From NCBI GenBank assembly GCA_949291125.1, contig CASEUJ010000033.1, positions 62,001 through 126,000 on the forward strand: DNA of 64,000 nt, read 5' to 3'. Below are positions 8,571 to 12,420 of this stretch, one piece after another. Source of the stretch: an uncultured Ruminococcus sp. (GTDB taxonomy: Bacteria; Bacillota; Clostridia; Oscillospirales; Ruminococcaceae). A program made the translations under genes and the position numbers. Under the pieces are notes generated by a model. It did not search any database. It was not told the DNA's origin and saw only the letters and a program-made list of their open reading frames with translations. How positions within the stretch are numbered: the first letter of the stretch is position 1; each line of letters begins with the position of its first letter.

Positions 8571-8637
8571 ATAAGCATTATACATCTCCCCAAAAAACTA
8601 CCCACTCAAACGGGCAAAATTGCAAAGAGGCGATTTC

Positions 8638-9204
8638 ATGAAAGCAAAGGATATCGAAGCTGTAGAATTTGTCCTGCTGGAACAGCTAAAAAAACATATC
8701 TCATGCGAATTCCTTGACAAAGCCATGCCTAAAATTACTTTGCTCGGCAGCGGCGGCGCACTCTGGATCGCATCAGCCGGCGCAATGTTCGTTTCCAAAC
8801 GTTATCGCAACACCGCTTGTACACTCGGTGCAGGACTAATCACTGGATCTGTCGTCTGCAATGCCCTGTTAAAAAAATTGATCAAAAGACCTCGGCCATG
8901 TTGGATCCGCGTACCGGATGGCATGCTGATCGAAATTCCACACGACTATTCATTTCCATCGGGACACACCATGTCTTCATTTCTGGCTGCTACGATCATT
9001 GCGCACGCCAATCGAGAACTGGGCATGGCGGCATATGGTGTGGCATCTGCAATTGCATTTTCAAGATTGTATCTCTATGTACACTTTCCCTCTGATATTT
9101 TCGCTGGAATCGGATTTGGCATCGGGCTTGGCAAGCTCTGCTGTGCCATTTCAGACCATGCAACAGAAAAGCGCACAGCACTGCGCCGAGGGAATCGGAC
9201 ATAA
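8638..9204 (+). CDS. PAP2-superfamily membrane phosphatase
   Basis: Membrane phosphatase of the PAP2 (type 2 phosphatidic acid phosphatase) superfamily, acting on a lipid pyrophosphate such as undecaprenyl-PP or on phosphatidic acid/PGP. The three signature blocks are KRPRP, SFPSGHTMSSF and SRLYLYVHFPSDIFAG, giving the catalytic His/Arg/His set. 188 aa with several hydrophobic helices. The ATG at 8638 has AGAGG about 8 bases upstream; an in-frame TTG at 8620 has no ribosome binding site. Substrate cannot be decided from sequence. Single-gene unit. Confidence 0.88.
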   Translation: MKAKDIEAVEFVLLEQLKKHISCEFLDKAMPKITLLGSGGALWIASAGAMFVSKRYRNTACTLGAGLITGSVVCNALLKKLIKRPRPCWIRVPDGMLIEIPHDYSFPSGHTMSSFLAATIIAHANRELGMAAYGVASAIAFSRLYLYVHFPSDIFAGIGFGIGLGKLCCAISDHATEKRTALRRGNRT

Positions 9205-9230
9205 CCTGTTTCAGTACTGCACAAACGCAC

Positions 9231-9264
9231 AAAAATCCGGCACAGAAGACCTCTGAGCCGGATT
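9231..9264 (-). terminator. Intrinsic terminator of the large RNA (possibly bidirectional)
   Basis: On the minus strand an AATCCGGC...GCCGGATT stem, extended by CAGA/TCTG past one mismatch, followed by TTTTT. On the + strand the run after the stem is weaker (TTCTATTT) but could also end the PAP2 transcript. Confidence 0.75.
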
Positions 9265-9331
9265 CTATTTATCCATATTCAATTTTTATCACCAAATTTA
9301 ATTTGAAAGAATTTTCATTCTTTCGCCGCAA

Positions 9332-9564
9332 TTTCGATGGGACTCACCCCTTGTTAGAATTTCATCATTTGATATCGATTCAAAAGCACTTTCATTGGAA
9401 ACGCCCCCTTACAGTATATACAATGGAGCAAATGAACTGATGCTTTTTCACATTGCGATCTTGGAGATTCGCCTATCCACATATTTCCATGGGACTCATT
9501 CCTTACATACTTAGATTAAGAAATATATTGTTCCATTTTACTTCTTCATGGGAATCACCTAAAA
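9332..9564 (-). repeat. Four degenerate repeats in the 3' half of the large RNA
   Basis: Copies at 9332-9353, 9389-9412, 9484-9506 and 9541-9564. Minus-strand cores: GAGTCCCATCGAAA, CGTTTCCAATGAAAG, GAGTCCCATGGAAA, GATTCCCATGAAG, each preceded by an AGG/GGG purine run. Centre spacing is about 57, 95 and 58 nt, so copies 1-2 and 3-4 form similar pairs. Confidence 0.5.
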
Positions 9565-9785
9565 TGTTACTCAACTTATCAGCATATATATAAAGACATT
9601 TCTGTCGGAGATCCGATGCCGTCATCGCATCGGATTGGAAAAATCCATATGCTGTCCATTCAAATAACAGATTTGATTGTAACGCAAACAGTTGCTTACG
9701 TCATTCATGCGGATTTTCGGGTGCACATCATCTTATCATTACCTTCGTGCGCTCGGCTGATCGGTGTCAGCTTCTCACTACGCCT

Positions 9786-9854
9786 TTATTCTTGTGCATC
9801 CAGCGAAACATCCGATGCTGACAGCATATGCAGCTGTGATTCTTCTATTGCCAT
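9786..9854 (-). CDS. Possible 22-codon ORF inside the large RNA
   Basis: ATG at 9854 lies nine bases after AAAAAGGAGGG (GGAGGG = 9864-9869), as good a ribosome binding site as any in the window. The peptide starts MAIEESQLHML and is acidic and soluble. The start codon is also part of the TCCGATG/CATCGGA stem, so it may be sequestered, or the SD match may simply be a structured purine run. I do not recognise the peptide. Confidence 0.25.
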   Translation of the reverse strand: MAIEESQLHMLSASDVSLDAQE

Positions 9855-9992
9855 CGGACCTCGCCCTCCTTTTTGATATAGAATCGCCTTATAAGAGGAA
9901 AACCCTCAGACCTTATAAAGCACATCGCTTGGGAACCTCTCCACCAGAGCCTCTCGCCAGCCCTTTGCTTCTGTTCCCCTTTCGTTGTATAT

Positions 9993-10021
9993 ATCATACC
10001 ACAGAATCAGGTTAAAGTCAA
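9993..10021 (-). promoter_or_regulatory. Strong sigma-A promoter of the large RNA
   Basis: Minus strand TTGACT (10016-10021), 17-bp spacer, TATGAT (9993-9998). No ORF of normal size follows in that direction. Confidence 0.82.
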
Positions 10022-10259
10022 CAGTTTTTTCTATTATTTTTTAGGGTTTTGTTCATTTTTTACAAAAAAAAGAAAAAAGCACGTTTGATATTTCATTTTT
10101 AATCTGATACTTATGAATCAACAGTAATAGTCAACTAAATTTTTATTTTATATGTTGATTCAATTTAAATGAGAATCTTAAAATCAAATTAGCATTAGTT
10201 ACATAAGTAATTTCATTGAGATACGCCCGGATGCGTGGAACAAACTGATATAAATTCAA
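10022..10259. other. AT-rich intergenic stretch with a 10-bp inverted repeat
   Basis: No gene seen. Very AT-rich. A perfect 10-bp inverted repeat TGAATCAACA / TGTTGATTCA lies at 10114-10123 and 10153-10162, 29 bp apart. It could be upstream DNA for the RNA promoter at 9993-10021 or a regulator site; nothing decides. Confidence 0.4.
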
Positions 10260-10299
10260 CAAAAAAGCAGCAGACCCCTTGTACCTTTGGGATCTGCTG
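10260..10299 (-). terminator. Intrinsic terminator of the pseudokinase gene
   Basis: Minus strand: 11-bp stem with one mismatch (10289-10299 with 10268-10278) followed by a run of six T. Confidence 0.85.
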
Positions 10300-10329
10300 A
10301 AATTCTTACTTTAGCTTGACTAAGTCAGG

Positions 10330-12279
10330 TCATTCGCCCTGTACCGGGTCCCCGATATTGTCCTGCGGTGCAGGCTGCCCTCCTGCAGGAGCTTCCGTAG
10401 GTGCCTGTGTCGGCGCTTGCGTTGCCGCTTCTGTCGGTGCCTCAGTTGGTGCTTCTGTCGTAGGAGGTTCTGTGGTTTCCGGTTCCGGATTATAGGCATA
10501 ATATACCACAACCTGATAATTATCATTCAGATTAATCTGATCACCGGCATCCACATCTACTTCCTGCCCATTACGTGTCACCAAAATTCCGATCACACTG
10601 CCGTTGCTATAACTGCTGGTAGTCTGCGATTGCGTTGTATATGAAATATGCAACGCATCCAGTTCGCTTGAATAAGAACTGATACCATAACCATAGTAAG
10701 ACGGGATCTCGACCGTTGCCGGCCCAATGCAGACTTGAATCCGCACCGGTTTTGAGGAGTCGAATGTTTCTCCGGCATCATATTCCTGCCAACATATCTG
10801 CCCCGCCGCATATGTATCATCAAAGACTTCTTCTACATCGAATGTGATCCATGAGGCATATTGTTCCCGCTGGTTCTCATAATTTTTCCCCAAAAGATTT
10901 GGCATAATACTATCTCCGGCGGGTGCTGTTGTCGCCTCTGTAGCCTCTTGCGTTGCTTCTGCATTGTCATCCGAAACACCAGTCACTTGCATTGAAGTAT
11001 CTGAAGTCGAGGAAATCGACGAATTATCATTGCCGCCCATCCAATCGCCGGCAAACACAAACACACAAATTAAAAGAACAAGCAGCAGCACAATGCCTAC
11101 AATAATCGGCACTTTCAGACGATCAATCGCCCCCGCCTTTTCGCGGCCATCGTCATATCCGTCCTCGCCATATGTATCATACGCATAATCATCCGAATAA
11201 CCTGTGTCATAATCCGGATACTCCGTTTCTTCATACGACGGATAATCTTCCTGCGGATAATCGTCGGCATAGTCATTCTGCGAAAAATCATAGCCGCCGA
11301 GCGGGATCTCATCCTCTGCCGCATGTTCATCAAAAAGATTTGTTACAAGCTGCGTCACAGTCTGAATCCGTTCTTCACTGTTCAAGTGCATACCGCGCAT
11401 AATCACGTTGGAAACATGCCGCGGCACATTCGGATTCAGAACCGACGGTGCGACCAAATTGTCATTTTCCAAGCGACTAATAGCCGACGGCGGCATGCTG
11501 CCGGTCAGGACACGATAGATCACCGCACAGACCGCATAGACATCCGTCCACGTTCCCTGCCGCTCGTTTGCTGCATATTGTTCAGGTGCAGCATAACCAT
11601 TATAAATTTCGCATGTCAGCTCTGTATTCGCCGTCCGCACCGCAGCGATCGAAAATGCCGACAAAATAAATTCGCCCTTATTTGTCACATAGATCGTATC
11701 CGGCGAAATAGCGCGATGTACGACGCCGGAATTATGCAACAGACTCAGTGTTGTCATTAGTGGCGGCAGCATGTGCGAAAGCTGTCCCCACGTCAATTCT
11801 CCGGCATTTTCCTTCAGATAGTCTACAAAGCGGATACTTTCGACATATTCATCCACAACATAAGTGGTATTGTTTTCTGCAAACAGATCCACAACTGTGT
11901 AAATATGCACCTGTCCGCGCAGACGCGCCAAGGACTTATGCAGCTCTGTGAATTCCGCCATCAGCGCTTTGTACTGCGCCAGACGTGCCGGGATCACACG
12001 GATCACCGGCGAACCGGTCACACGTGTACAGAGATTCTGCGGCATATATTCGCGCAGCAGTACCTTACAGCCGATGGACTGGTCGTATGCCAGATAGGTC
12101 ACGCCTTCGCCGTTCACCGACTGCACTACGCCAACAATATATCGATCATGCAGATGCGTTCCCGGTTGAATAAAAGATGGGTCACTCGGAGACTGGTCAT
12201 AATATCCGCAATGCGGACAAACGCCGCCGGAAAATTCCGTGCGTTCCATACAGCCATAGCATAACTTCCGTTCTCCCAA
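10330..12279 (-). CDS. Membrane-anchored Ser/Thr pseudokinase with zinc ribbon and PASTA-like repeats
   Basis: Looks like a PASTA-type Ser/Thr kinase sensor but probably lacks catalysis. Order: N-terminal zinc ribbon (Cys7, Cys10, Cys21, Cys24); kinase fold (about 45-310); acidic Tyr/Asp-rich linker (about 325-380); one membrane helix (about 390-410); two PASTA-like modules outside; and a Pro/Thr/Glu-rich C-terminal tail. The catalytic HRD is HRA (His188), the DFG position reads SAF, and the VAIK Lys position appears to be Arg (VLLR, about 76). APE is kept. The start is a TTG at 12279 because AGGAGG lies seven bases upstream; longer in-frame starts have no such site. Product 649 aa. A role in binding cell-wall fragments or scaffolding a signalling complex is inferred. 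It has its own promoter (12421-12449) and terminator. Confidence 0.85.
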   Translation of the reverse strand: MGERKLCYGCMERTEFSGGVCPHCGYYDQSPSDPSFIQPGTHLHDRYIVGVVQSVNGEGVTYLAYDQSIGCKVLLREYMPQNLCTRVTGSPVIRVIPARLAQYKALMAEFTELHKSLARLRGQVHIYTVVDLFAENNTTYVVDEYVESIRFVDYLKENAGELTWGQLSHMLPPLMTTLSLLHNSGVVHRAISPDTIYVTNKGEFILSAFSIAAVRTANTELTCEIYNGYAAPEQYAANERQGTWTDVYAVCAVIYRVLTGSMPPSAISRLENDNLVAPSVLNPNVPRHVSNVIMRGMHLNSEERIQTVTQLVTNLFDEHAAEDEIPLGGYDFSQNDYADDYPQEDYPSYEETEYPDYDTGYSDDYAYDTYGEDGYDDGREKAGAIDRLKVPIIVGIVLLLVLLICVFVFAGDWMGGNDNSSISSTSDTSMQVTGVSDDNAEATQEATEATTAPAGDSIMPNLLGKNYENQREQYASWITFDVEEVFDDTYAAGQICWQEYDAGETFDSSKPVRIQVCIGPATVEIPSYYGYGISSYSSELDALHISYTTQSQTTSSYSNGSVIGILVTRNGQEVDVDAGDQINLNDNYQVVVYYAYNPEPETTEPPTTEAPTEAPTEAATQAPTQAPTEAPAGGQPAPQDNIGDPVQGE

Positions 12280-12420
12280 AGCGATACCTCCTATCGTTTC
12301 TGTTCCGATATCCCAAGTCAAAACATTTCAGCGCCGCGTACATCTTACGCGCACGCATCCGGTTTTATGCGTTGCAAAAAGCCAGATGCCAGAGACATCC
12401 GACGCTTTCTGCCCTTATAT

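Follow-up and report, generated by a model that had tools for sequence, protein, structure and literature searches.

A stand-alone Ruminococcus RNA gene with an array of Shine-Dalgarno sites and ultrashort ORFs, a candidate trans-acting RNA for initiating ribosomes

The window analyzed here is the whole 64,000-nucleotide stretch of Ruminococcus DNA. On its minus strand, a region at 9231 to 9986 lies downstream of a PASTA-domain kinase gene (10330 to 12321, minus strand) and faces a convergent PAP2 gene (8620 to 9204, plus strand) on its terminator side. The longest minus-strand ORF listed inside the region has 50 codons, the listing minimum being 40. The sequence-only reading had taken this region for a dedicated RNA gene of unassigned family, and our analysis agrees, as the region has its own promoter and terminator, no match in Rfam 15 at the gathering score, homologues in the genus and covarying helices.

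The promoter proposed at 9993 to 10021 on the minus strand is present, reading TTGACT-17-TATGAT with an extended −10, in which TG precedes the second hexamer. Its hexamers are kept among relatives: of the 12 aligned genus loci that cover the promoter, 11 have TTGACA at −35, where the window has TTGACT, and 11 have TATNAT at −10, the exception being L013 with TACAAT. A scan found 11 promoter-like sites versus 5.2 ± 2.7 in shuffled sequences, so the promoter taken by itself is weak evidence. The intrinsic terminator (9231 to 9264, minus strand) likewise has the expected stem, 13 nt long, at 9234 to 9264. A simple terminator scan did not list this stem, perhaps because the stem extends into the T tract. 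Around a similar terminator loop, several relatives carry another stem sequence, as judged by eye from the alignment. By eye we also noticed a Shine-Dalgarno-like GAGGTCT in the terminator loop of the window (9247 to 9253) and of L003, L004, L006 and L011.

The promoter and terminator, together with the kinase gene upstream and the convergent PAP2 gene, indicate a separate transcription unit. A further hairpin with a T tract at 10262 to 10306 on the minus strand looks by eye like the terminator of the kinase gene, parting it from the RNA gene. The minus strand folded with z = −3.8, none of 20 shuffles being as good, and the plus strand with z = −1.7 (2 of 20). When the phage and plasmid collections were searched with the RNA gene, no match was obtained, in line with the chromosomal placement suggested earlier. 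Taken together, the sequence features support a structured, chromosomal RNA of about 750 nt that is transcribed as a unit of its own.

At the DNA level, homologues were found in 12 of 16 genomes of the genus and matches in 17 of 60 genomes of relatives, the window's own being counted in both. One of them is a named isolate of the genus, Ruminococcus callidus ATCC 27760 (G004), with a clear copy at L134. We rejected G033, G040 and G044 as homologues, since their match covers the promoter end only and their loci have no mini-ORF array. From the relatives, a usual order could be read: promoter, 5′ hairpin, ribosome-binding site (RBS) with a leader ORF, middle hairpin, mini-ORFs, short peptide ORF, terminal element and terminator. 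Within this plan, the short peptide ORF is often present and the terminal element occurs in many loci.

The 5′ hairpin (9886 to 9921, minus strand) consists of an outer stem, a conserved GGNYT bulge and an inner stem. With its arms anchored by hand, 137 of 144 cells were paired across the 12 genus loci; for the outer stem, 89 of 96 cells were kept, compared with 43 to 61 of 96 when the hand-anchored arms were slid. RNAalifold predicted no pairs in the 5′ hairpin because the 3′ arms were misaligned. The hairpin is followed by the RBS AAAGGAGGGCGAGGTCCG and the ATG (9852 to 9872, minus strand) of leader ORF1, which has 22 codons (9786 to 9854, minus strand; MAIEESQLHMLSASDVSLDAQE) and is open with equal length in the six closest species compared. 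We saw no amino-acid selection in ORF1: differences at the three codon positions were 49/93/90, with position 2 varying as much as position 3. In 27 hand-picked loci, the leader ORFs have 11 to 22 codons and a strong RBS of their own, and many begin with MA or M[E/D] and carry acidic residues. By eye, no leader ORF was seen before the first unit in L063, L113 and L120. A PP motif, possibly a pause site, is common to the leader ORFs of L040, L055, L103, L109 and L104 (MKEATPP..., MKMEAPPAQFKEF, MKDIPPESYLK), those of L040 and L103 being read by eye with TTG starts.

Inside ORF1 lies arm A (9820 to 9830, minus strand), which is complementary to arm B (9646 to 9656, minus strand): all 11 of the genus loci compared can form at least 10 of the 11 pairs. 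Arm B can pair either with arm A or with arm C (9579 to 9588, minus strand), an alternative partner whose 6-bp core is likewise present in all 11. Because the three arms are nearly invariant, most of their letters having been fixed by the scan itself, covariation offers no test of these pairings. The middle hairpin (9609 to 9636, minus strand) has an invariant GATGACG loop, and all 90 of 90 cells were paired in ten sequences, with seven of nine pairs changed on both sides; these come from 10 of the 12 loci with the hairpin, selected by the loop and by flanking letters that fix two of the nine pairs. The scan left out L004 and L005, where the hairpin is visible by eye. The sequence-only reading had pointed to two GCATCGGA stems among its strong hairpins: one GCATCGGA belongs to this local covarying hairpin, and the other sits inside leader ORF1. 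Compensatory base changes, the check named for a structured RNA, were found in the middle hairpin and in the helix of the terminal element described below.

The sequence-only reading had missed the leader ORF and a 3′ half built of Shine-Dalgarno and mini-ORF units. In the window, unit 1 is AGGTGATTCCC-ATG-AAG-AAG-TAA, a 3-codon mini-ORF (9538 to 9560, minus strand). Unit 2, AAGGAATGAGTCCC-ATG, opens a 5-codon ORF, MEICG (9473 to 9504, minus strand), and unit 3 is a 13-codon ORF, MKVLLNRYQMMKF (9354 to 9410, minus strand), in the place of the short peptide ORF that precedes the terminal element in relatives. The window copy is less regular, with one strict motif followed by ATG and with 5 and 13 codons in units 2 and 3. 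In several relatives, AAAGGTGAGTCCcATGG repeats every ~50 to 57 nt, and L056 has six mini-ORFs. The motif is an extended Shine-Dalgarno sequence, GGTGAnwCCnATG, usually followed by a stop after one to three codons. Read by eye, the loci of several genera have an ORF for a short basic peptide ahead of the terminal element. L063, L113 and L120 (also L041, L043 and L084) follow a second architecture, built of units such as ATG-TAC-AGG-TAA or ATG-AAC-AGG-TAA; in the first three, the last ORF, read by eye, has nine codons (MLDIKSEQK or similar) just before the terminator, and L120 has arrays on both strands.

We then counted stops at codons 2 to 4 after the motif. With taxon groups assigned by hand from record titles, an in-frame stop was found at 86 of 136 Clostridia sites but at only 9 of 147 sites in other taxa, where most motif ORFs are long. 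In frame +2, such stops occurred at 7 of 136 Clostridia sites; the frame +1 count (45 of 136 in Clostridia and 62 of 147 in other taxa) is inflated because ATG followed by A reads TGA. TAA, TGA and TAG all serve as mini-ORF stops. As the search pattern is silent on stops, their enrichment is independent evidence for ultrashort ORFs. At the level of loci, at least one motif ORF exceeds 11 codons in 13 of 55 Clostridia loci, and all ORFs have 11 codons or fewer in 8 of 61 other loci.

In 29 transcripts (20.9 kb) whose limits were set by hand and which, like the loci hand-chosen for the pairing and last-codon counts below, include near-identical genomes (L057/L058, L164/L165), we found 107 motifs, 74 of them with a start codon. 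Fifty-four of these 74 open ORFs of at most three codons, 20 open ORFs of 4 to 24 codons, and none is longer; among the 33 startless motifs, 19 have a hairpin and 14 have neither start nor hairpin. Outside these transcripts, the loci gave 51 motifs in 274 kb (both strands), five with a start. These five are likewise short (1, 3, 3, 3 and 8 codons), and some lie in the opposite-strand array of L120.

The predicted pairing with the 16S 3′ end (GGATCACCTCCTTTCT, from R. callidus) averaged −14.0 kcal/mol at 82 array sites, compared with −9.5 kcal/mol ahead of 45 window ORFs (200 codons or longer) and −5.9 kcal/mol in shuffles. This comparison is descriptive, since the motif itself had served to pick the array sites, and some of the 45 ORFs, each taken from its first ATG, are probably false. 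Among 111 ORFs of two or three codons, 52 have Lys or Arg as their last sense codon, against a background of 10.8%, with matching sites taken anywhere in the loci; this bias may come partly from A-rich sequence after AUG and from shared ancestry. L114 (Lachnospiraceae), which had been among the loci of both counts, was rejected as an array because it resembles a coding repeat. Between genera, the Shine-Dalgarno sequence, the start and the early stop persist, while the peptides vary.

The terminal element (9305 to 9352, minus strand) has GGTGAGTCC without ATG, a 16-nt spacer and a hairpin with a GAAA tetraloop. Its consensus is GTGAnwCC, exactly 16 nt and a 7-bp hairpin closed by the same tetraloop. 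When spacings of 4 to 40 were scanned, 39 of 43 matches had a spacing of 16 (some re-fetched genome copies being included, with 20 distinct sequences listed), and five shuffles gave six matches, none at 16. In the helix, 97.9% of 140 cells were paired and six of seven pairs had changed on both sides; the rows used had been chosen for having six or more of the seven pairs, and 12 of the 20 come from one genus. L174 has three tandem terminal elements. If the missing AUG were in its usual place, the hairpin would start at +16, close to the leading edge of an initiating 30S subunit. The existence of this AUG-less motif shows that initiation is not needed at every unit.

To trace the RNA beyond the genus, we used a double-motif pattern, two motif copies 25 to 55 nt apart, which is insensitive, the window's own genome failing it. 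The pattern was found in at least 116 stretches of the species-genome collection. It occurred in 10 of 297 genomes of the family (7 of 126 genera), with 0 of 297 for a reversed-pattern control, and in 0 of 391 class genomes and 0 of 299 phylum genomes. In one of the ten family genomes, G032, the match resembles coding sequence. A model of the terminal element matched 13 of 148 family genomes (11 of 123 genera), several near the threshold and at least four (G000, G006, G010 and G155) being sources of the model; among the 197 order genomes drawn, it matched only the window's own. Judging from these matches, the RNA belongs to a family found in Ruminococcus and other genera of its taxonomic family, and its sparse record (10 of 297 by pattern, 13 of 148 by model) indicates that it is patchy or fast evolving. 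A candidate second array in the window's genome, L153, proved to be one GGTGAGTCCCATGTAA site with no array around it. Viral contigs gave 10 pattern matches, mostly long ORFs or close tandem repeats. One viral contig (L146:2923-2999) has two tandem GGTGATTCCAATG sites with 3-codon ORFs (MNY and MDY), possibly a phage-borne version.

Within the genus (L134, L036), the kinase gene and a radical-SAM gene flank the RNA. The neighbors at other loci differ (rpoD, DUF1292, melibiase-like, argG, MatE, RarA/MgsA-like and others, from 20 proteins at 14 loci), and no conserved same-strand downstream gene was found among these proteins and the window. As the neighbors differ between genera, the RNA probably acts in trans. 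A DUF1292 gene lies beside the array in L056, L103, L109 and L012. In an Rfam search of 37 array loci, only tRNA, 6S, Gut-1 and T-box were matched, never on an array. A 6S RNA gene shares the 8-kb stretch with the array in 12 of these 37 (L109, L033, L103, L050, L040, L055, L056, L093, L029, L065, L058 and L057), always upstream of the array and divergent on the other strand, a count in which locus ends are arbitrary and some loci are close relatives. The 6S gene of the window's genome is on another contig.

How might such an RNA work? We propose, at a probability of roughly 45%, that it acts in trans, engaging ribosomes at initiation and/or bringing about the release of peptidyl-tRNA, and that translation of its leader may switch it. 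The anatomy is well supported by the comparison of relatives; for the mechanism, titration or cycling of initiating ribosomes together with peptidyl-tRNA release is the best that we infer from it. At each unit, the 16S 3′ end would base-pair with the RNA and so bring in a 30S subunit, initiation would follow, and the ribosome on the mini-ORF would terminate or drop off almost at once. The array would thus titrate initiating ribosomes and/or convert the Lys/Arg-rich two- and three-codon ORFs to peptidyl-tRNA and free subunits. The terminal element, with its hairpin at about +16, would hold a 30S subunit unable to start. We further infer that translation of the leader ORF may switch the arm pairings: ribosomes on ORF1 would cover arm A and free arm B for arm C, so that the array would sense the state of translation. 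Weighing against the proposal are the irregular window copy, the patchy or fast-evolving record of the RNA, the AUG-less motif, the softness of the pairing comparison and the other possible sources of the Lys/Arg bias.

The behavior of known minigenes bears on this proposal from both sides. According to the available text of PMC8708949, expressing a minigene can set free short peptidyl-tRNA and deplete the tRNA that reads the last codon; in the axe-txe minigenes tested there, the effect was in cis and not in trans, which counts against a trans reading of the array RNA. In the part of PMC10192219 consulted, AAA and AAG are among the codons enriched at miscoded drop-off sites, whereas cognate sites are enriched in codons starting with C, so drop-off cannot be judged from the codon alone. 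A more tentative extension, which we think could well be wrong, is that the RNA is a ribosome counterpart of 6S, a many-fold mimic of translation start sites that would hold or cycle initiating 30S subunits while depleting the pools of charged initiator and Lys/Arg tRNAs, with translation of the leader ORF as its gate.

Other explanations were weighed against the same evidence. The sequence-only reading had suggested a large ornate structured noncoding RNA of the ROOL, GOLLD or OLE kind. Such an RNA would suit the size, the separate promoter and terminator and the fold energy (z = −3.8), but none of these families was found on either strand of 9200 to 10350 even at E ≤ 10, where the sub-threshold matches (SpF39, greA leader and others) were dismissed as chance. 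What the relatives have in common is a series of initiation sites that open ultrashort ORFs, not one large folded domain, and we now regard the ornate RNA as very improbable. Since the RNA is probably translated, the label "noncoding" is itself doubtful. Translation could instead be the purpose of a micro-operon, in which an acidic leader and short basic peptides (e.g., MKINVVFRLFNP) have signaling or regulatory roles, with the mini-ORFs left as spacers or remnants. The acidic leader ORFs of 11 to 22 codons in the 27 picked loci, many with MA or M[E/D] starts, and the basic ORFs ahead of the terminal element in several genera are what it would predict, and the leader and penultimate ORFs might encode working peptides. 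ORF1, however, has no purifying signature (49/93/90), two- and three-codon ORFs cannot make specific proteins, the peptides differ between genera where Shine-Dalgarno sites and stops stay, and the L063, L113 and L120 arrays have no such leader before the first unit; we consider the micro-operon unlikely.

A sponge that soaks up CsrA or a similar RNA-binding protein would account for a motif that recurs, whether or not AUG follows, in an RNA that otherwise varies; 6 of 18 array genomes encode CsrA. The other 12 of the 18 genomes tested, several of them incomplete and the window's own (87% complete) among them, have no CsrA, and the core of the motif is GGUGA, while CsrA recognizes GGA in a loop; a CsrA sponge is thus a poor prospect, though some other protein might bind the motif. 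Somewhat better, yet still quite unlikely, is a regulatory RNA that base-pairs or binds protein, with ribosomes on the mini-ORFs merely shielding it from nucleases. The covarying helices accord with this, as does the protection of espADB mRNA by mini-ORF ribosome occupancy described in the available text of PMC8708949, but such an RNA needs no exact 16-nt spacing, Lys/Arg bias or AUG-less copy. Least credible is a cis-acting leader or attenuator of the next gene: a leader ORF with alternative pairings is what one would look for, but a terminator follows, the next gene (PAP2, 8620 to 9204) is on the opposite strand, and the neighbors vary between genera.

If our proposal of a trans-acting, ribosome-engaging RNA is true, bacterial RNAs would have a new means of controlling protein synthesis, and global control of translation in gut bacteria would be tied to a free-standing RNA. 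Minigene-type peptidyl-tRNA release, so far described as a toxic or cis effect, would become testable as a natural system. As far as our searches of the literature reach, no such RNA family or precedent has been described, the available parts of PMC2864571 and PMC13009471 adding none for the RNA, and this would be the first RNA with a series of start-stop ORFs as a conserved feature of its own transcript.

Among known systems, ROOL, GOLLD and OLE share with the array RNA the size class, a structured nature and an own transcription unit, going by the available text of PMC12286853; they differ in that the array RNA has no Rfam match and no common architecture was seen. With 6S RNA the likeness would be one of principle, in that the array RNA would also mimic the start site of a core machine and titrate that machine, and 12 of 37 array loci have a divergent 6S gene. 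6S RNA mimics a start site and titrates RNA polymerase, the enzyme it binds, whereas the array RNA has no Rfam match to 6S. The CsrB and RsmZ sponges carry repeated translation-initiation-like motifs in one RNA. The array RNA resembles them in its repeated motifs but has GGUGA instead of GGA, contains mini-ORFs, and in 12 of 18 genomes occurs without CsrA. Lambda bar is a minigene with a two-codon ORF. In bacterial minigenes such as LEE1 and axe-txe mg2, as described in the part of PMC8708949 consulted, a Shine-Dalgarno sequence and AUG are followed by one or a few sense codons and a stop. The same succession is found at the 86 of 136 Clostridia sites, and in the window copy as one 3-codon ORF along with longer ones. 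The minigenes in that part of PMC8708949 are single or paired and lie in cis, before or inside a gene, whereas the array RNA carries many of them and is free-standing: it has a promoter and a terminator of its own, and no gene follows on its strand. In the window, the terminator and a convergent gene come next. Dual-function RNAs such as VcdRP also hold a small ORF inside a regulatory RNA; going by the available text of PMC8672173, VcdRP has one small-protein ORF, compared with the many ultrashort ORFs of the array RNA.
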